The translations under genes and the position numbers were made by a program. The notes below the pieces were generated by a model. That model was not told the origin of the DNA. It saw nothing but the letters and a program-made list of their open reading frames with translations, and ran no database searches. From NCBI GenBank assembly GCA_963971405.1, contig OZ020489.1:39856539-39920538 (forward strand): a DNA stretch of 64,000 bases, written 5' to 3'. Shown here piece after piece: positions 1,370-63,339 of this stretch. This DNA is from Psococerastis gibbosa. Its lineage: Eukaryota > Arthropoda > Insecta > Psocodea > Psocidae. Position 1 is the first letter of the stretch, and every line of letters starts with the position of its first letter.

Positions 1370-1762
1370 GGGCAAACCGGAGTCGCCGATATTCCATTTC
1401 TGTGCAAACTTTAATTTCTCGTTAAGTATGGAACCCAGAACAATGAAAAAATGCTGAATGGAAAGAAGAATTTTTTCTCCTAATTTTGATACATAGTATG
1501 TTGCAATCATCAATACCGATCGGCTATAGTTAGTGAACTCGATACGCAAAAAATAACGGTCACTCAGGAGTTCAAGCTGAAGGAGTTCATCAACTGTCGC
1601 GAATTGGGGTTAGTTAAGACCACATGCTATACATCAAAATTAGGAGAAAAAATTCTTCCTGCCATTCAGCATTTTTTCATTGTTCTGCGTTCCATATTTC
1701 ATGAGAAATTGAAGTTTGAACAGAAAATGGAATATCGGCGACTCTGGTTTGCCCTTTAATGT
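1370..1762. repeat. Foldback repeat with ~125-bp arms
   Basis: Bases 1370-1492 (GGGCAAACCGGAGTCGCCGA through CTCCTAATTTTGAT) recur inverted at 1634-1762 with a few mismatches, around a 140-bp loop. The left arm is preceded by a tRNA B-box-like GGTTCGAGACC at about 1332. It is probably a pair of SINE-type copies in inverted orientation. Confidence 0.65.
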
Positions 1763-1789
1763 AAAGTCCTGAACTCCCGAATCTTTGAA

Positions 1790-1856
1790 GTTGATCGTAA
1801 GATAACTCCGGTAGGTGGGCTTAGTAATAAAACAAAAAGTCATTATTTACTTGCTT
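1790..1856 (+). repeat. SINE 3' tail fragment
   Basis: GGTGGGCTTAGTAATAAAAC followed by AAAAAGTCATTATTTACTTG matches the tail of the SINE copies at 31372-31566 and 39572-39660. Confidence 0.5.
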
Positions 1857-1943
1857 ATGTCTTATCTGATGAATACCTAGCAGTCTCATGGGGCCTTAAC
1901 GTGGTTAAACCCTAAATCATGATGCCAATTCTATATTTTACAG

Positions 1944-2108
1944 GGATGGAGGATTTGAACGCATGGCTGTACAACGAAGAGAAAGCAATGAAATGGCTTC
2001 AGGGGAAGGCAGAAAATGTGGCACTAGCTTTGAAAGAAGGAGGGCTCAATGTCGATGGCTCGGCAGTTTCGCAGACTTATGTCATGACGTCTAACCAAAA
2101 GGAAACAA
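1944..2108 (+). CDS. RNASEH2B: Ribonuclease H2 subunit B, internal exon
   Basis: The acceptor TTTTACAG precedes the exon and the donor GTACGT follows it. The split Gly codon joins base 193 to bases 1944-1945, giving the junction DRKG/MEDLNAW. The encoded segment NEEKAMKWLQGKAENVALAL aligns with the human stretch [20 protein letters not shown], the helical segment after the core domain. It ends in phase 1 and joins 4154. Confidence 0.9.
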
Positions 2109-2289
2109 GTACGTTTTTATTTAATTTTCACATAATATTTATAGCCTGTCTGCTGCTGCATATAAGCCCTGTTGCAAGAAGAAGCTCATTGAAGGTCCTT
2201 TAATTTGTATAATATGCAAAATTGCTAAACACCCGAGAGCTCCAGAACATGACCTTGTAATAATAGAGGGATCTAAATTAAATTAGAGG

Positions 2290-2365
2290 ATATGGACAAT
2301 ATGGCGGGATTCGAACCCACCGGGGCGTCGTCTTAACCGATGGACCACAAGCTGCGACAACTGCG
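2290..2365 (-). repeat. tRNA-like SINE head fragment
   Basis: On the minus strand there is an A-box-like GTGGTCCATCGGTTAAGACG and a B box GGTTCGAATCC, spaced as in a tRNA. No convincing full acceptor stem was found, so it is read as a tRNA-derived SINE piece rather than a tRNA gene. Confidence 0.45.
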
Positions 2366-2744
2366 GAAATCTCCAAATCCTCTACTTATGCTCTAATTGA
2401 CATGATTCGTATTGCTAGACAGGCTAGCTCAACTATCTAACCATTTTTTCCATCCTCTGTAATTTCGGTTATAAAGTGAAGGTACCTCTTCAACCAAAGT
2501 TAATTTAATGTCAGTGTTACATACCTATACCATATAATACTGCAGTATAGTGTAGTAAAAGATATTATATACCTTTCCCGCATGCTGAACAGCGAACAGA
2601 AACTGTGCTATGTATAATGATTGCGTTAATTAGGGACATGTATCACCTGATGATGTTTTCTGTCAGTGTCTCATTGTGCAAGACCCAGCACACCTTATTA
2701 TCTTATTTTACTAGGTGAATTATATAAGCTGTGATTGCCTTTAT

Positions 2745-2895
2745 GTAGGCCAGAGCGGCAGGTATTTTCAGGATAGGATTAAAGAGCAAAAAAGAGGAGT
2801 ATTTAATCCTGAAACCTGACAGGCTGTCCATTTTAGGGTTTTACACGAAAGGGATGCGGGATAATTGCTGAATTCGCTAGAAGGGATCAGAATTA
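2745..2895 (+). pseudogene. Penelope-like element GIY-YIG endonuclease fragment
   Basis: One frame reads CDCLYVGQSGRYFQDRIKEQ, the GIY-YIG-type endonuclease core of Penelope-like retroelements (usual form CxxxYVGQTGRxFxxRxxEH). It continues as AVHFRVLHERDAG with two stop codons. It is short and dead. A LINE tail abuts it on the right. Confidence 0.6.
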
Positions 2896-2909
2896 ACCTT
2901 CATATATGA

Positions 2910-3177
2910 TTAAAAAGCCAGTTGCTGAAAAAATTACTAGGAACAGAATAGGTTTAGAATAAGAATACTGTCTAGATATTTACTGTATGTGTTTTTTTTT
3001 TACGTCACATCACTTTAGAATAAGTTCTTTTTATGCATTGTTAGAATAAGATTGTTTACGTTAAGCGTATGTATTTTGTAAATTGTATTGTTTTTTGACG
3101 TGGGTTAGGCAGAAAAAGACTTTCTAGTCTTAAGTCTCGCCCCGCAAATATAATTATTATTATTATTATTATTATTA
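2910..3177 (+). mobile_element. 5'-truncated LINE 3' end with (TTA)n tail
   Basis: Nearly identical to 61638-61912, the last codons (AAAAGCCAGTTGCTGAAAAA) plus 3' UTR of the LINE at 60.1-61.9 kb. It ends in a (TTA)n tract at about 3152-3177. It lies in RNASEH2B intron 2. An older copy lies at 35020-35276. Confidence 0.75.
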
Positions 3178-3184
3178 AATGTTC

Positions 3185-3450
3185 CTCATTCAGCACTTCC
3201 TCCGGTTACCATCCTTCTCACCTGATGTTGTCCTCAATTTGGTTTCTGTGTCTCTATCATTTGTTTTGTACGGTTTTGCGTGAGCACTTAAGCCGTGGTT
3301 CCTATTGTGCCTCCTGCTGAATACTGGTACGTCAAGACCTTTTCCCCTAATAAAGCGCTTGGATCTTGCGGGCATTCGACCCTTTTCAGGTTACACTTTT
3401 CTCAGCTCAGATAGCTGACCTAACTCCTATTTTGCTTCGCTATGCCTCAC
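3185..3450. repeat. Dispersed repeat, unclassified
   Basis: Contains CCTCAATTTGGTTTCTG and related words shared with 6530-6620 and 41750-41870 (CCTCAATCTGGTTTC). No coding signal was seen. Probably an old transposon UTR. Confidence 0.35.
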
Positions 3451-3819
3451 CTTAGCGGAAGCCAGATGCCGCTCAACAACCGTCTAATACACAATTGCTA
3501 AATCCTTACTGATCAGCCTGCGCTTCTTTTCCTTTCTGATATGTTTACGCCATCTTTAACATGTACACGATCATCACGATCATTGAAACCATTAAACATA
3601 GTAGAAATCGGGCTCACTGCGTTCAAATTGCCCGGACTGCTTCTTTTTTCTTTTAAGGCCTCTATTATTGAATATTGGCGATCATCATGGCAATTTCGGC
3701 CTTGGAGACTGCTTCTCTGAAAGAGGAAGTCGTGCTCTTGCCAAACCACTGCCTCAGGTTTTTCAACCAGGATGTTCTTCTGCCGCGAGCCATCTGTCCT
3801 TCTATCTTCCCTTGTATTA

Positions 3820-3956
3820 CGCGCAAATTACACCGACCTTGATAGTGAATAGTGATAGTGATATTGACGTAGTAGCAGACATTTTTAGCATTTTTAGACT
3901 GTCTTTAATGTCTGCACAATATCACTATCACTATCGCGGTCGGTGTAATTTGCGCC
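3820..3956. mobile_element. MITE M2, hairpin type
   Basis: A near-perfect hairpin: CGCGCAAATTACACCGACC on the left and GGTCGGTGTAATTTGCGCC on the right. The centre carries GTAGCAGACATTTTTAG ... TAATGTCTGC, as in M3, M5 and M9. Flanked by TTA on both sides (3817-3819 and 3957-3959), a 3-bp duplication. Confidence 0.8.
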
Positions 3957-4153
3957 TTAGTACATGCTTGAACAACTGCAGCTTGCTGCAAATCAGTATT
4001 TCCAACAAGAAGCAATGTCGTTCCCCTGGCTAGGCCAATGGCTGTGTCTCTTCCTTAGTCTTCCTCTACTTCGTGTGCTACTTCGTGTATTTCTTCTTAG
4101 GGCAAAGTAACCCAAACAAAATGTAAAGCGTAAATATATATTTTATTTTACAG

Positions 4154-13432: not shown

Positions 13433-16336
13433 ATGATGCATGATGAGGACGATGAGATATTAAATATAAACCAAATAAACTCAATAGTCATTGAAAATTG
13501 TCGCCAACTATCCCGAAATATAATAAAAAATGGAAATCTGTACATACTCCATATGAACATACGATCCATTAGTCACAATTTGGATGAATTTCTTATTTTT
13601 CTGCAGAGCCTACCTGTCGTGATTGATATAATTGTGTTAACTGAAGCTTTTATAAATGAAATTAGCCCTGCCTTCAGCCTAGATGGGTATGACTTCTTCG
13701 CTAAGGGTGGTTCTCTAACACGCAATGAGGGGGTCGTAATATTTTGTAAATCCACCCACAAAGCCTCAGTAGTTGATATTAAAATAACAGAATGCACTTC
13801 ACTATTACTTGAATTGAAACCCCAAAAGGGGGCGAAGTCCCTGTCAGTTCTGGGCTTCTACAGAACACCCTCTATTAAAAATACAGAAAATTTTATTTAT
13901 GATCTTGACATGTGCTTACATATGCGCAAAAATCAATTAGGACTAGGCCCTATTTTAGCAGGAGACATAAACATCGACGTGTTAGACAAAGAGGGGGATG
14001 AATATCAAAATATGCTTAGCGGCCATGGCTACGTCCAGTGTATAAATAACTACACCAGAGTTACCGATGTAAGTCAATCATGCATTGACCATATTTATAT
14101 CCCTGAAAACTATTCCACCACCGACATACAATCCTTTGTTATTCAAACATCAATAACTGACCACTATACTCAACTGTTATCCCTACCCATGCCTTCCCAC
14201 TATTCAAAAATTGAAAATAAGTTAGGGTGCAAGTTAAAAATAAATAAAATTGATTATAATGCCTTAAATCGGTCCTTAGAACAGGAAACATGGGATAGTG
14301 TATATTTAAATAACGACGGCAATGCAACATACAACAATTTCTTACATATCTTCAAGAAACAAATACAAAATAATACTAAGCAGTTCGAAGTTAGGCCCAA
14401 CAACAAAACAAAAAAGTTGAAACCATGGATAACAACTGAAATCGTTGAAGCAATACGACATCGTGATAAATTGCATAAAAATAGTAAGAAACGACCCCAT
14501 GACCTCATATTGAAATCTCATGCTAAATCATTCTCGGCCCAAGTTAAAACGCAAATTAAAATAATAAAGTCCACATATTACCAAAACAAATTACACGATG
14601 CAGGACATAATTTGAGAAAAAAATGGGAAATAGTAAATGAAATAACTGGAGGTACGAAGAAACAAAACATTAAAGAAACTAACATCTCTTCCAAAGCATT
14701 TAACGAATACTTTTTAAAAGTAGGCGCGAACCTTGCCCGTGAAATACCCCATGACCCAGCAAGTCTGAACATTCGCCTAGCAGCAATCCCATCTAATCCA
14801 TATACACTGTTCCTAACCCCTACAACCCCACAAGAAATAAGTACAATAATATCGAATTTAAAAAATTATTCTGCCCCCGGTCATGACAATATTACAAACT
14901 ATACCCTTAAGTCCGTCAAACCCCATATAGCGGAACCGTTAACTCATGCCATCAATGCATCTTTGTCGACCTGTACGTTTCCCGATAGCCTAAAGCTAGC
15001 AATAGTCACTCCAATATTCAAGGACAATAGCCCAGATGACCCTGCAAACTATAGGCCAATATCAGTACTACCTGCTATCAGTAAAATCTATGAAAAAGTC
15101 CTATATACCAGACTAAGCGATTTTGCCGAAAAACATAAGCTTATTTCTTCCCAGCAATTTGGATTCCAAAAAAACAAGGGAACAACGGAAGCAATATGTG
15201 ACCTAATAAATGAATTAAGTGATATTTCTAACAAGAAACAATACAGTCTTTGCATCCTAAATGACTTAAAAAAAGGTTTTGACACTATTTCCCACAGTAT
15301 ACTACTTAAAAAAATGGAGAAACTAGGGCTCAGAGGGCAAGTCCACACTTTGCTAACCAGTTACCTGACTAATCGAAAACAAAAAACAAAAACGTTACCT
15401 AGTTCTGACAAATGCATTTGTTTTAGCGATGAAGATACCGTTACGTGTGGCATACCCCAAGGCAAGGTACTTGGACCATTTTGCTTCAATTTAATCTTAA
15501 ATGATTTATTAACCTTAAAACTAAGTAGCAAAATAAATGCATTTGCGGATGATACGATACTAATATGCAGAGGCTCCACAAGAGCCGAGCTATATGAGTC
15601 TGCAAACAATAATCTGAAAATTGTAAAATCATGGATGAATGACAATTTACTTACTCTAAACTTAAAAAAAACGTATTATATAGAGTTCACTAATTCACAA
15701 ACCAACATACAAACTGACAACTACCGAATTGAGGGAATCCAAAGAGTAGATAGCGCAAAATATCTTGGTTTGATAATAGACAAAAAACTAAACTGGCAGG
15801 AACAAATTAATACCCTTATATTGAAACTTAGAAAATCTATTTACAAATTCGTCCAAGTTAGGAATATAGTTGATGAACACTTACTGAGAGCCATATACTT
15901 TGCTTTAATACAGTCACACTTACAATATGGGATTATAGCATGGGGGGCTTCATATAAAAATGAACTTGAACGGCTAATTAAAATTCAAAAGAAAATCCTT
16001 AAAATTATGTACAAAAAGCCTAAATTATTCCCCACTGAAGAGTTTTTTCATATTGCCAAAGTCCCAACCATCAATAAAATATTTACCAAACAATCTCTAA
16101 TACAGTTATACAAAAATAAGCTTTTAGGCCTGCATCCCGAAGTCTCCCACGAACATGGCACAAGATATAAAGAGAGAAAACCCCTACTGCACGAAAAACC
16201 AAGAACAAGTAAAACTAAAAATACAGCGCAATACATGGCACTCTCTATCTATAATGATCTGCCCAGAAACTTGAAGGATGGTAAAAGCCTACGAGTATTT
16301 ATAACCAAAGCTTCCCAGCACTTGAATCTCTTTTAA
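13433..16336 (+). CDS. LINE ORF2: APE-type endonuclease plus reverse transcriptase
   Basis: 967 residues, uninterrupted. Endonuclease residues are visible: N42 (HMNIRS), E71 (LTEAF), D178/N180 (AGDIN), D219/H220 (CIDHIY) and D243/H244 (ITDHY). Reverse transcriptase: NYRPISVLP at about 539, motif A NDLKKGFDT around D611, motif B GIPQGKVLGP at about 673, and catalytic FADD at 704-707. There is no RNase H domain, as expected for CR1/L2-type elements. Motif B has Lys where Ser is usual (PQGK for PQGS), a possible damaging change. The protein nicks target DNA and reverse-transcribes its RNA there. Start chosen at the first of two Met codons; either is possible. Confidence 0.88.
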   Translation: MMHDEDDEILNINQINSIVIENCRQLSRNIIKNGNLYILHMNIRSISHNLDEFLIFLQSLPVVIDIIVLTEAFINEISPAFSLDGYDFFAKGGSLTRNEGVVIFCKSTHKASVVDIKITECTSLLLELKPQKGAKSLSVLGFYRTPSIKNTENFIYDLDMCLHMRKNQLGLGPILAGDINIDVLDKEGDEYQNMLSGHGYVQCINNYTRVTDVSQSCIDHIYIPENYSTTDIQSFVIQTSITDHYTQLLSLPMPSHYSKIENKLGCKLKINKIDYNALNRSLEQETWDSVYLNNDGNATYNNFLHIFKKQIQNNTKQFEVRPNNKTKKLKPWITTEIVEAIRHRDKLHKNSKKRPHDLILKSHAKSFSAQVKTQIKIIKSTYYQNKLHDAGHNLRKKWEIVNEITGGTKKQNIKETNISSKAFNEYFLKVGANLAREIPHDPASLNIRLAAIPSNPYTLFLTPTTPQEISTIISNLKNYSAPGHDNITNYTLKSVKPHIAEPLTHAINASLSTCTFPDSLKLAIVTPIFKDNSPDDPANYRPISVLPAISKIYEKVLYTRLSDFAEKHKLISSQQFGFQKNKGTTEAICDLINELSDISNKKQYSLCILNDLKKGFDTISHSILLKKMEKLGLRGQVHTLLTSYLTNRKQKTKTLPSSDKCICFSDEDTVTCGIPQGKVLGPFCFNLILNDLLTLKLSSKINAFADDTILICRGSTRAELYESANNNLKIVKSWMNDNLLTLNLKKTYYIEFTNSQTNIQTDNYRIEGIQRVDSAKYLGLIIDKKLNWQEQINTLILKLRKSIYKFVQVRNIVDEHLLRAIYFALIQSHLQYGIIAWGASYKNELERLIKIQKKILKIMYKKPKLFPTEEFFHIAKVPTINKIFTKQSLIQLYKNKLLGLHPEVSHEHGTRYKERKPLLHEKPRTSKTKNTAQYMALSIYNDLPRNLKDGKSLRVFITKASQHLNLF

Positions 16337-16650
16337 GAATATGTAATTTTCAACTCCCCCCCCCCCTCCCCTTCCAATAAGATTCCATTCATTCATTTAC
16401 TTATTTCAATTCTTTTCAATATTAAACTAATCAGCATCAAGGACAATTTTATTGAGTGCACTGTGAACTTTTAGAAAATAAGCAACTAACCTAACCTAAC
16501 GTAATCTTTAATTAATTTTAATTTTTTTTCTAACTAACTTTATTTTTAGGCTTGACTAACATCCCTTTAACTAGCCACGCACGGCCTTGGCCTGTGGCAA
16601 TACCTATGTATCACTATGTAATGTTTATGGGACTGAATAAATATAATAAT

Positions 16651-17275
16651 TTTTTTTTTTTTTTTTTTTTTTTTTTCCTAACTGGTTACTCCACCAGCTA
16701 GGGGATTATATTAATTCAAAATAAAAATAGACTAATTACAATTCACGACCACCCCAAAGCTTCCGCTTGTCGGGGGTGGCGTCTTCTTCACTAAATGTTG
16801 CAACTTTTTAAGGGTATTGTGGGTTCAATAGGTCTTGCCTATTGAGTCTCTAGCAACCATTTTTTTATTACTTGTTTTGCTTTCCCAATTTTTTCTTCAT
16901 TTTTTATAGCTTGGGGAATTTCGTTGAACAATTTTTTTATTAGCACATTATTTTCCCTGTCCCCATATTTATTGTATGTAATTGGTATCTGTAACCTTTG
17001 TTGTTGCCTCGTATATCTAGATTTGTCCGCTGCTTTATATTTATCGTCGAAATAATTTTGTTTTATAATTTTAAATTTTAAGATTTTATTGCACGTTAAT
17101 AATTCAGCATGTTGATATTTCGAAAATGTATCATTGTATTTTTTGTTAAATTTTTCCGAATACATATTAGTTATAATTCTATCTTGTATTTTTTGTATGT
17201 AAGTGTTATTATCACGTCCCCATGATGTGATCCCATAACTGATAACTGATTCCACTAATGCATGGTACACCATCT
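16651..17275 (-). mobile_element. 5'-truncated LINE in reverse, with poly(A) tail
   Basis: On the minus strand it ends in 26 A (16651-16676 as T). It encodes the last 144 residues of an RT-type ORF (16839-17273; VISYGITSWGRDNNTYIQKI). This matches the + copy at 62520-63143 with about four amino-acid differences. The truncated 5' end abuts (TAA)n. Its family is CR1/L2-like; the fragment is too short for finer placement. Confidence 0.85.
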
Positions 17276-18501
17276 TATAATAATAATAATAATAATAATA
17301 ATAACAGTCTCCTTAAAACAAAAATCTCAACTTTTTTTTAATCACATATTACGGAATATTGACCAGTGGAATACACGCCTTAAGATTAGAAATAAGCGCC
17401 ACAGTAGGCCCGCAGACTATTTAGCCTGCGGTATTACTGTTGTTCTGTAAATTGGTTTAATACACTTTATCCTGCTTTTTGCCAGTCAGGCTATATTTCA
17501 GATGAGAAAATGCAAATTTACTATTACTATTCAGGTATTTTTGCAGCTATAGATTGAGATGTTAATTAATTTTGTGAAGATAACTCAGGTCAGCGCAGCG
17601 TGCCTTTACAAAAAAATTGGAATGTTGCCCCTTAATAATAAATCTATTACTACGCCCTTAAACCGATAGTTAAATTCATGTCTGATAATGCGATCAATAA
17701 AATGTTTATAACTTGCGTAGTAACATAGAAAAGGTGCGGGATCCAAAGGCCAGCTATGAGTCTCTGGAGCTGCAAAGACTGTCTCAATCTTTGTAGTACA
17801 AAATCCAGAGAAATGCTCATCTGATGATTCAGCTCTGGCTGGCAAGTCCAACTTCCACGTCCTCGTCGTGGATCCTGGGCACTTTAAAGTGGCAAACGGA
17901 AGAGGGGCGAAAGGCGGGTCTTTGGCGCCTTTAAATAACTGAAGCAAGAGGCTAAGGGAGCACACCCCGACAGAAAAAGCAGTAGATGCTGATCATAAGT
18001 GGGAAAGAGTGAACGGAACTGGCCCGAGTAGACTGAAACGCTCATTCAGCGCAGAGGACCCAAAGCGAGGGTACAGATGAAAAACTGGGGTGACACACCA
18101 GGCCGCTGTATAGTACAGGAACCCGGGGTGGTCTAGTCAACCATCCTAGCTGTTCTATCATACAGTGTAAAATCCTGAGCGACAGCACTGCCGGTTGACG
18201 ACCGGATAGGACCGTGCTGTGGATAGGTGAAAGCCTAATGCGAATGCGTAACATGCTAACAGGGGGATCATCCGAGGTCACGTGGTAGGTTTCTGCGCTG
18301 GGTAGGACGTTGTTTTTGGAACCCTAATGAGCGTTAAGGTCGTCTCGATGTTGGTGAAGGGAACTCCAACTGCGAGTGATCAGTAGGCTCTTCACAGGGC
18401 GTGGATGGGCCCCTCGGGGCGTTATGATGGACACCTTAAAAAAAACGTCTGACGTGTCACAGACAACTGGGTTTCCTAGCCCAAGTTTCTAGGTACCTTC
18501 T

Positions 18502-35019: not shown

Positions 35020-35276
35020 GGTTTAAAAGCCTGTTACTAAAAAAATTGCTAGGGCCAGAAATCGGGACAAATGAATAAAATTTCAGTTGTTTCCTGCATG
35101 CTCTTAGTTTAGAATATGATTATTTAAGTTAAGCTAACTGCTGTTTTTTGTTTTGTTGACTATTTACTGTATTTCGGACGTGTTTTTGGACGTGGGTTAG
35201 ACAGATAAAGACTTTTCTAGTCTCATGTCGCGCCCCGTAAACATAAGACGTCTGTTATCATTATTATTATTAGCCC
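35020..35276 (+). repeat. Older LINE 3' end
   Basis: Diverged copy of 61638-61912: AAAGCCTGTTACTAAAAAAA, GACGTGGGTTAGACAG and TCTAGTCTCATGTCGCGCCC, ending in (ATT)n. Confidence 0.65.
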
Positions 35277-35689
35277 CCGACAAATTGATTAACTTGTTAT
35301 TTGTATTACAAGTAATCGCTTTTCTCGTGATCTCTCTCGATCGCCATCTTTCCTGAGTAAGCAAGTCACAATTTTATTTCTTTATGAAATAACATAATTG
35401 ATTATATTTATAAATATATTCCTTCGGCGCAGGAGAGTACCGGCCGAAGAAGAAGAAACAAATATTATTATTATCAGTACTCTGTCTCTCTCATGCAATC
35501 ATTAGGGACAGGATGTTGGGATGAGCTGCATTAATTAATTGGGGCCGATCGGTGTTAAGTACGGTGACATAATGTGCATCAAAATGTAGAGAAAGATTTC
35601 TTATATAATATATATATATATATTTCCTGTGCAATTTGATATTTTACAATAGTAAGGCATTGGAAGCTAAATAAATGAATAAATAAATG

Positions 35690-60094: not shown

Positions 60095-61912
60095 CCCTAA
60101 AATTGTTCTTTCTGTGCTATTAAATGTGATGGATGATATAACTATTGCAGCCGATGGCGGGATGGTCACCATTATGACATTACTGGATAAAAGTAAAGCC
60201 TTTGACAGCGTTAACCATGACGTTCTACTGGCTCGTCTATCAGCCTTGAATTTTTCGTCGGACGCTATTGCATGGGCAAAATCATATCTCAGTGGTAGAG
60301 TACAGATTGTAAAAATTGGCGAAAAACTATCGGCAGCCTCCCCTATTCGCTCAGGAGTGCCTCAAGGCTCTGTCCTTGGTCCTCTCCTCTTTTCAATTTA
60401 TGTGTCAGATTTAGCATCGAGTCTGAAATACTGTAGATACCATTTTTATGCAGATGATCTGCAGCTCTACGCGCATACGAATCAGTTCAACTTTGTTGCT
60501 ACAGCGGATAAAGTCAATAACGATCTAAAGAATGTGGAGGGTTGGTGTGGCAGTAATTTTCTTACGTGCCCATTCCATTGACTGGCTAGGGCTATTTCCA
60601 ACAACGGTAACGTGGTAGCAGACATTCAAGGCTTAGGTGGCGTCTCCACCGACCTCGCATTGCAGAATTGCCGGAAATGTTTATTTTCCTCTATGCCATA
60701 GTTAAAATTGATCAATGATCATACAGTAAAATCACAAACAAACAAACTAAAATTAAAAAATGGCTTCATGGGATATGTTAATTACAAATATTTTAATAGA
60801 TTTCTATAAAAAGAAAAACAAACATTTCCGTCAATGTCATTTGCAATCTGCAATGCGAGGTCGGTGGAATCGTTACCTAAGTCTTGAATGTATGCTACCA
60901 CGTCACCGTTGTTGGAAATAGCCCTAGCCGGTCAATGGAATGGGCGCCTTATGATAAATCCAAATAAGTGCCAGTCAATAATCCTTGGCTCCAGAAAGCT
61001 TGTGTCCAGAATTATGAAAAGTGCCCCACCTCCGATTATAATAGGTGGTAGAAATATCCCCTACGAAGAGCAAGCCATTAAAAATCTTGGCCTCTACGTT
61101 GACCAGGGTCTTACTTGGCATGATCATACCAAAAGAGTGTGTAAAAGGTTTTTTACTCCTTACACGCCCTGCAGCGCCTAAAATTTTTACTTCCTGTTGC
61201 TATAAAGCGAAATCTGATACAATCATTAATATTTCCTATATTTGACTATGTTGATTTGATTTACAGTAGTTGTAATGAAGTCGATGCTAGGCGCCTCCAA
61301 TATGCGCAGAACTCATGCTTCATTGTTGATTCATGGTTCATTTACAATGTGAAACGGCGGGATCACATAACCCCATTCTACCGCAGGGCTCAGTGGCTGA
61401 AATTAGGTGAAAGAAGAACTTTCCACTCACTATTATTAGTATATAAGGTTTTGAACAGTGCAGCTCCTCCATATCTATATGACCGCCTAAAGCCATTGAA
61501 TTCCCATAGAAATGGACTTGTATTGCGAGTACCCCGACATAACACAGCTTTATATGGTAGTTCTTTTTTTGTAAATGTCTGCCGCCAGTGGAACTCCCTA
61601 GATAAGGAAATTAGATCGCAGCCAAAGATTCGTGGGTTCAAAAGCCAGTTGCTGAAAAAATTACTAGGAACAGAATAGGTTTAGAATAAGAATACTGTCT
61701 AGATATTTACTGTATGTGTTTTTTTTTTTTTTTACGTCATGTCACTTTAGAATAAGTTCTTTTTATGCATTGTTAGAATAAGATTGTTTACGTTAAGCGT
61801 ATGTATTTTGTAAATTGTATTGTTTTTGGACGTGGGTTAGGCAGAAAAAGACTTTCTAGTCTTAAGTCTCGCCCCGTAAATATAAGACGTTTATTATTAT
61901 TATTATTATTAT
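60095..61912 (+). mobile_element. CR1/Jockey-type LINE fragment with (TTA)n tail
   Basis: RT domain from motif A (LLDKSKAFDSVNHDVLLARL) through SGVPQGSVLGPLLFSIYVSD and FYADDLQLYAHT. It is interrupted by MITE M7, then continues MINPNKCQSIILGSR, a frameshift near 61150, and LIYSSCNEVDARRLQYAQNS to the stop at 61676-61678. A 3' UTR follows with a (TTA)n tail at about 61893-61912. The endonuclease end is missing. Copies of its 3' end occur at 2910 and 35020. Confidence 0.82.
60565..60948. mobile_element. Composite MITE M7, inserted in a LINE
   Basis: Same outer arms as M6 (left end CGTGCCCATTCC, right end GGAATGGGCGCC), flanked by TTA on both sides (60562-60564 and 60949-60951). The inner core is in the opposite orientation to that in M6. 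Removing it with one TTA rejoins the LINE frame exactly (SNF/LMINPNKC). Confidence 0.88.
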
Positions 61913-63143
61913 TAGCTTGGGAGTAGAGGATATTGAGATGGAATGGTTTGAAAACTATCTGACGGGGCGTCAAGTTGTCGTGAAAGTGTGTGACTCAACA
62001 AGTAACCCCGGAGACTGGGCAACAGGCGTACCACAAGGTAGTAAAATTGGCCCAATCCTCTACTTAGTAGCTACTAATAAAGTACTGCAAACATTGAGGA
62101 AAGGCAAGGGGTTTATGTTCGCCGATGATACGGCTATAGTAGTGGCCTGTAAGGAAATTAACAAAGCCAATAGCATTCTCCAAAAAGTAATTACAGATAT
62201 TCAAAAGATATCTCATGATATTGGGCTCACAATAAATTGTGCAAAGACCAAAATAGTACATATAAGAAACAGGGGGCCTAAACAACGGAAAAGTAAGTTC
62301 ACTTTCCATAAACATGAGTGCTTACACAATGATGAAAGCTCAACAAGATGCGAATGCAGCGATTTCATAGATATAGTTGAGGAGCATAAATATCTTGGTG
62401 TTTGGATTGATGGGAACTTTAACTGGCAAACACAAATTGACTCAGTGTGTAAAAAGCTAAGATCGGCAAGTGGAGTACTACATAAATTGAAATATGGAGT
62501 TCCTTTGAAAGCTAGAAAGATGGTGTACCATGCACTAGTGGAATCAGTTATCAGTTATGGGATCACATCATGGGGACGTGATAATAACACTTACATACAA
62601 AAAATACAAGATAGAATTATAACTAATATGTATTCGGAAAAATTTAACAAAAAATACAATGATACATTTTCGAAATATCAACATGCTGAATTATTAACGT
62701 GCAGTAAAATCTTAAAATTTAAAATTATAAAACAAAATTATTTCGACGATAAATATAAAACAGCGGACAAAACTAGATATACGAGGCAACAACAAAGGTT
62801 ACAGATACCAATTACATACAATAAATATGGGGACAGGGAAAATAATGTGCTAATAAAAAAATTGTTCAACGAAATCCCCCAAGCTATAAAAAATGAAGAA
62901 AAAATTGGGAAAGCAAAACAAGTAATAAAAAAATGGTTGCTAGAGACTCAATAGGCAAGACCTATTGAACCCACAATACCCTTAAAAAGTTGCAACATTT
63001 AGTGAAGAAGACGCCACCCCCGACAAGCGGAAGCTTTGGGGTGGTCGTGAATTGTAATTAGTCTATTTTTATTTTGAATTAATATAATCCCCTAGCTGGT
63101 GGAGTAACCAGTTAGGAAAAAAAAAAAAAAAAAAAAAAAAAAA
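61913..63143 (+). mobile_element. 5'-truncated LINE in a TTA repeat, with poly(A)
   Basis: Begins directly after the (TTA)n tail of the previous LINE. It encodes the RT from between motifs A and B (TGVPQGSKIGPILYLVATN, MFADDTAIVVA, YLGVWIDGNFNW) to a stop at 62952-62954, then a 3' UTR and poly(A) at 63118-63143. After the tail comes TTATTATATATTG. Same family as the reverse copy at 16651-17275, with very few differences, so recently active. The reading frame from about 61917 is open. Confidence 0.88.
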
Positions 63144-63339
63144 TTATTATATATTGTTCTGTAAAGGTTGGAAATAAATAATTCATACATTAATTCATTG
63201 TATACTGTGTGTAGCGTAGTAAAGCAAAATTGTACCATGAAGAAATATAAATTGTTCAAAACTTTTGTGGACTAAGATTTGCATATTATTGGACGCTCAG
63301 ATTTTTTGAAATGCGGTAGAGATGTTTATTTATTTATTT

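Follow-up and report, generated by a model that had tools for sequence, protein, structure and literature searches.

A LINE family of Psococerastis gibbosa targeted to (TTA)n microsatellites, among them the tails of other LINEs

Microsatellite-specific LINEs with an APE endonuclease are represented by Waldo, Mino, Kibi and Koshi of the R1 and Tx1 clades, and the TRAS and SART elements of the R1 clade comprise several families that have a single simple tandem repeat as their common target, with a fixed orientation. According to a 2026 paper, Tx1 and R1 are the only APE clades that hold site-specific LINEs (PMC13295347). Insertion in TAA.TTA microsatellites has been described for Dong, an R4 element of Bombyx mori, and for Dong-type elements (PMC3774820, PMC3636483), the Dong primer having (TAA)n upstream on the sense strand (PMC3774820), while the HERO and Togen families, which also have microsatellite targets, are RLE-type (PMC4640811). 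In the literature covered, with most subscription papers and Repbase outside its scope, no TTA-targeting LINE beyond the Dong-type elements and no TTA-specific LINE of L2/CR1 type was found.

A 64,000-nucleotide stretch of the P. gibbosa genome (hereafter the window) contains two copies of a LINE, designated family A, that shares with Dong the TAA.TTA microsatellite target. A preliminary description of the window had cited Dong, of the R4 clade, and some R1-clade LINEs as known users of microsatellite targets, and had proposed typing the endonuclease as APE or REL. R4 is an REL clade, whereas the endonuclease of family A is of APE type, so that family A is not a Dong/R4 element; its polarity is also opposite to that of the Dong primer, with (TTA)n rather than (TAA)n upstream on the sense strand (PMC3774820). 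Dong further carries a 5′ ribozyme, whereas an Rfam search across the family A element returned no HDV-like ribozyme, the sole match being to a microRNA family, with a score of 22.2 bits where the gathering score is 52. Family A resembles Waldo, Mino, Kibi and Koshi in that its endonuclease is of APE type and its target a short tandem repeat, but those elements use other repeats and a different type of ORF1, that of family A showing PHD and Baculo_FP_2nd matches. The likeness to TRAS and SART lies in the use of one simple repeat by several families in a fixed orientation, although their target is the telomere repeat and that of family A a dispersed microsatellite, and the clade is probably a different one.

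Target and polarity of insertion

The forward-strand copy in the window (61915..63116, +) is 5′-truncated and retains the RT part of ORF2, the 3′ UTR and a terminal hairpin, followed by a poly(A) tail of 27 A (63117..63143, +) and by TTATTAT (63144..63150, +), the leftover target repeats on its 3′ side. Directly upstream, a 24-bp TTA array (61891..61914, +) forms the 3′ tail of a host LINE, H, whose copies elsewhere have the same tail; the boundary falls at 61914/61915, and in a genome search other copies align to the query from its base 25 onward only. The second copy, likewise 5′-truncated, lies on the reverse strand (16677..17276), with its poly(A), T on the forward strand, at 16650..16676 (−) and on its 5′ side an array at 17277..17304 (−) that is TTA on the element strand and (ATA)n as read forward. 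It is flanked by the tail of another LINE, LINE2 (ATATAATAA), on one side and by (ATA)n on the other, and on its own strand it presents the order of TTA array, element, poly(A) and TTATTAT that is seen in the first copy. The two are 99.2% identical across 634 bp and were truncated at different points, leaving 1203 bp (+) and 600 bp (−). The preliminary description had reported this much, namely one copy directly after the TTA tail of the LINE at 60.1-61.9 kb with TTATTAT beyond it, a near-identical but differently truncated reverse copy with a TAA-type array on its 5′ side, and the splitting of another LINE's tail by the latter; only the limits have been refined, to a start at 61915 and to 16677-17276, respectively.

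In the genome (409 Mb, 68 contigs) the family A 3′ end plus six A has 136 exact matches (64 forward, 72 reverse), compared with none for a reversed control of the 3′-end sequence, and the 5′ end has 17. Copies were sampled blind to their flanks and comprised 20 of the best 40 genome matches, the pair in the window and a further 20 exact 3′ ends, the last being taken in list order from outside the best 40. A junction was scored as positive when a TTA (or TAA) run of at least 8 lay within 30 bp upstream of it, and six of these last 20 copies, without a definable 5′ junction (L032, L033, L035, L038, L046 and L047), were left out, L033 re-entering as L049. TTA runs were present at 33 of the 36 definable junctions among the 42 sampled copies and at 11 of 12 additional full-length 5′ ends (TAA, 0/12). 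Pooled, 44 of 48 junctions carried TTA, always on the element strand, and none of the 48 a TAA run of at least 8. By comparison, a TTA run of at least 8 occurs in 0.86% of 20,000 random 30-mers from the window, and a run of 11 in 0.2% of window 30-mers. The sampled copies are partly non-independent, in that L050 and L051 have the same flank and are probably one event, and L054 and L060 share another. TTA was lacking on the 5′ side of four copies (L042, L045, L048 and L059), of which L042 and L048 adjoin the tails of relatives with no TTA between. L059 has a full-length 5′ end with no TTA in the 30 bp upstream, and either inserted off target or was altered afterwards.

On the 3′ side, 32 of 64 forward 3′ ends have TTATTATTATT no more than 30 bases from where the tail begins, the other half being without a long TTA array nearby; 3′-side counts are given for forward copies only, since on the reverse strand a single copy could be counted at several gap lengths, for both A and type B (see below), and the totals there are too high. 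Directly after the A run, 23 of the 42 fetched copies read TTATT or TATTA (18 and 5, respectively). Across the 36 copies the 5′ arrays have a median length of 33.5 bp versus 9 bp for the 3′ arrays, and the 5′ array is longer in 27 copies and shorter in 8 (Wilcoxon p 0.003).

Two of the sampled insertions, L013 and L026, are situated inside copies of a dispersed repeat, R, in which common left and right flanks frame an array, the element or elements, and a second array. At 73 genome places nothing but a short stretch, ATT for the most part, separates the R flanks (the search pattern allowed 5-35 bases), and the array, being present there without family A, must therefore precede insertion; these empty sites are paralogous, not allelic. 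An empty-site pattern for the host common to L014 and L055 gave no matches. The R arrays that carry family A are far longer than those of intact R, for which the pattern maximum was 35 bases, and this may reflect either a preference of family A for long arrays or growth of the arrays afterwards.

The R sites bear on whether the TTA repeats belong to the element rather than to its target, as a tail made by slippage and as repeats at the 5′ end of the RNA. LINE H does make such a TTA tail, and TTA follows the poly(A) in many family A copies. However, copies truncated at some 30 points all begin at TTA, so that the 5′ repeats cannot derive from the element, and this explanation, contradicted also by the R arrays that lack any family A, was rejected as extremely improbable.

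The same distribution could in principle arise if insertion were non-specific and copies survived only in neutral microsatellites. Microsatellites are harmless sites, which lends this idea some general plausibility, but other LINEs of the genome behave differently. As controls, 5′ junctions were scored in truncated copies of two such LINEs, LINE2 (13.5-16.6 kb in the window) and H (60.1-61.9 kb); both are also young, their genome matches having 98-100% and 91-98% identity, respectively. TTA runs of at least 8 were found at none of 16 LINE2 and none of 6 H 5′ junctions, the longest run being 7. Control flanks L074 (LINE2) and L096 (H) had been left out as the same LINE running on, and LINE2 copies C1:8685178 and C12:5456995 as rearranged; L074 itself seems internally deleted. 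Since selection would, moreover, not impose one strand, survival bias was rejected, and its probability is considered negligible. Family A therefore has the attributes of a microsatellite-specific non-LTR retrotransposon, with junctions in the repeat on both sides and with other LINEs that lack them, and the original proposal that it targets TTA/TAA microsatellites is upheld by 44 of 48 copies, by both controls and by the paralogous empty sites. The 30-base flank tabulation suggested with that proposal, as run on the 48 sampled junctions, did not yield mostly non-repeat flanks.

Host tails and related LINE types in the same arrays

The hosts in the window are H (60100..61890, +, start approximate), which ends in its own TTA tail, and LINE2 (13500..16649, +, the start being that of the query rather than a proven end), which has an (ATA)n-type tail in which family A lies antisense. 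All 13 H copies examined elsewhere (12 long, one short) end in TTA repeats, and the three LINE2 copies examined have TAA/ATA-rich tails. H and LINE2 thus make their own tails, yet neither inserts in TTA; they supply targets because of the TTA/TAA tails at their ends. The sense orientation of family A in the H tail and its antisense orientation in the LINE2 tail are as a single strand rule predicts. Within H, positions 60568-60945 correspond to a MITE-like inverted-repeat element with 99-nt arms that are 92% complementary and separated by 180 nt, and the H flank of L096 continues without it.

From reading of the flanks, retroposon-like 3′ ends adjoin at least 16 of the 48 family A sites. Nine of these are ends of the related types B, C or D (including L042 and L048, and L050/L051), five are AATAAA-type ends as inferred from the signal, and the remaining two are at H and LINE2, one each. 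Four more of the 48 sites are in repeats found elsewhere, two in R and two in a repeat ending GTCCTTCA[AG]GAC. The earlier suggestion that family A parasitises the tails of other LINEs consequently applies to at least 16 of 48 sites, but not as its sole niche, other TTA arrays, such as the internal array of R on two occasions, being used as well. Such numbers might also be expected if family A in truth targeted its host LINE, or retroposon 3′ ends in general, with TTA incidental, and the absence of TTA between L042 or L048 and the adjoining tails of relatives would fit that interpretation. It was nonetheless rejected as very unlikely, given that the hosts are of many kinds with only the array in common, that family A has the sense orientation in TTA tails and the antisense one in LINE2, whose tail is of ATA, and that R is split in an internal array.

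The arrays also hold relatives of family A. LINE types B, C and D, recognized by their 3′ hairpins, lie beside family A in the same arrays and in the same orientation, giving stacks such as A-TTA-B-TTA-D (L011), A-TTA-D-TTA (L013) and another LINE's tail-TTA-B-TTA-A-TTA (L020); at L042, H-TTA is followed by C, and C in turn by A and TTA. The ORF2 pieces of B and D have 47-55% identity to that of A. A third LINE-in-tail insertion in the window, absent from the preliminary description, occupies 35231-35474, where an H-like tail ending in a TTA array (35260..35272, +) is followed by a type B fragment that has both a 3′ hairpin and a GAA tail (35273..35462, +) and by a further TTA array (35463..35474, +).

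As types B, C and D were first met next to family A, type D was sampled by itself, from 20 loci in list order of which 16 were alignable (L105, L108, L109 and L110 failed to align to the D reference); site C1:2579282 was left out as overlapping another, the segment scored for D reached 6 bases into the element, and two of the 20 loci, L117 and L120, also adjoin family A copies. TTA was found at 11 of the 16 D 5′ junctions and TAA at none. Of 216 forward copies of type B, 24 have TTATTATTATT no more than 30 bases from their 3′ end, which is above the 0.2% background and far below the proportion for family A. Loci L108, L109 and L110 have a D-type 3′ end on otherwise different, near-identical sequence with a common 3′ flank, and may be copies of a unit that was duplicated or of a non-autonomous element.

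Structure and affinities of family A

Full-length family A elements, found at 6 of 21 long loci (20 fetched loci and L001), measure 4281-4297 bp up to the hairpin end (∼4.29 kb). ORF1 (286 aa) gives a PHD match (E 4e-4) at 20.7 bits, under the Pfam cutoff of 24, and also matches Baculovirus FP domain 2 (Baculo_FP_2nd). ORF2 (950 aa) matches Exo_endo_phos at its N-terminus (28.2 bits versus a cutoff of 24.5), indicating an APE-type endonuclease, and RVT_1 (RT); no REL-type family was among the matches of its domain search. Both ORFs are intact at full length in two of the six full-length copies (295 and 991 codons, stop to stop). A search of PDB with the endonuclease gave 8 weak matches with no chain named R1 or TRAS among them; the L1 endonuclease chains in that search were weak (E 0.13-0.79), and the best match, to an HNH nuclease (E 0.00052), was dismissed as spurious, its alignment being in scattered pieces. 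Pairwise identity among 27 copies, measured across the final 600 bp, has a median of 99.3% and a minimum of 80.8%; the family is young, with some older members. Two copies, L046 and L047, have internal deletions that join reference position ∼1670 to 4011 and to 4092, respectively.

In folding comparisons with 200 shuffled sequences, the 3′-terminal stem-loops of A, D and D2 beat all shuffles (z −4.5, −5.9 and −3.7), that of B beat 196 (z −2.4) and that of C only 181 (z −1.25). The loops are GGAGUA (A), GGAAUA (D) and GGUUA (D2). Covariation over the five hairpins is weak (−0.12 kcal/mol), with 5 of 10 pairs changed on both sides and several broken. In L2 elements a GGAUA loop is required for transposition, and the ORF2 protein of ZfL2 binds its own hairpin between EN and RT (PMC5135761, PMC2653535, PMC4176376). 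Family A shares with UnaL2 and ZfL2 of the L2 clade the 3′ stem-loop that precedes the tail and has a GG..UA loop, the GGAUA-like loop being present in A, D and D2, and the combination of APE and RT in ORF2, a feature of L2/CR1 elements; UnaL2 differs in ending in TGTAA repeats rather than poly(A) (PMC3747384). The excerpts of L2-clade papers on UnaL2 and ZfL2 contain no mention of target specificity.

A hairpin alone cannot decide the clade, since SART1 of the R1 clade also requires a 3′ stem-loop (PMC5135761). Together with the reported confinement of site-specific APE LINEs to Tx1 and R1 (PMC13295347), this would accommodate family A as an R1- or Tx1-clade element, and hence as one more member of the APE clades already known for site specificity. 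That assignment is possible but doubtful, as the hairpin loops resemble the L2 GGAUA loop and the ORF1 of family A has a putative PHD finger, matched below the Pfam cutoff, a domain that a study confined to the Jockey superfamily, with R1 and Tx1 outside it, reported as frequent among L2 and CR1 elements (PMC4120745). On the ORF1 and the 3′ hairpin, placement of types A-D near L2/CR1 seems likelier than placement in R1 or Tx1. It is slightly more likely than not that a clade of L2/CR1 affinity, with at least four LINE types in this one genome, has evolved (TTA)n specificity and constitutes a third site-specific APE lineage beside R1 and Tx1.

A possible mechanism and its consequences

Taken as a whole, family A is with high confidence a young APE-type LINE that integrates by target-primed reverse transcription, in nearly all cases at (TTA)n.(TAA)n microsatellites and with the TTA on the strand of its sense sequence, and its affinity is probably with L2/CR1. 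The ORF2 endonuclease may nick the TAA strand within the array. Nicking between T and AA is a known L1-type preference, and on the (TAA)n strand it would leave a 3′ T able to pair with poly(A); the freed 3′ end could then prime reverse transcription, starting from the tail that follows the 3′ hairpin. The simplest guess for the longer 5′ arrays would be a nick near one array end. The tails differ, being poly(A) in A, GAA-like in B and GAAA-like in D, while the target is common, which suggests that specificity probably resides in the ORF2 protein and argues against tail annealing as its cause. Repeats left on both sides would keep the site open to more insertions, so that LINEs would stack.

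Few LINEs of this type show targeting as strict as this. The combination of L2-like 3′ ends with one microsatellite target would allow one to ask which changes in ORF2 turn a loose preference into specificity, a question for which the non-specific LINEs of the same genome serve as controls. The use of one LINE's tail as the target of another links transposon families directly at the ecological level, and explains stacked LINEs in the same orientation that annotation would read as rearrangements. If the proposed scheme is true, the TTA left on both sides of each insertion and the TTA tails of other LINEs would form a self-renewing landing pad common to types A-D, on which these types would build same-orientation LINE stacks.
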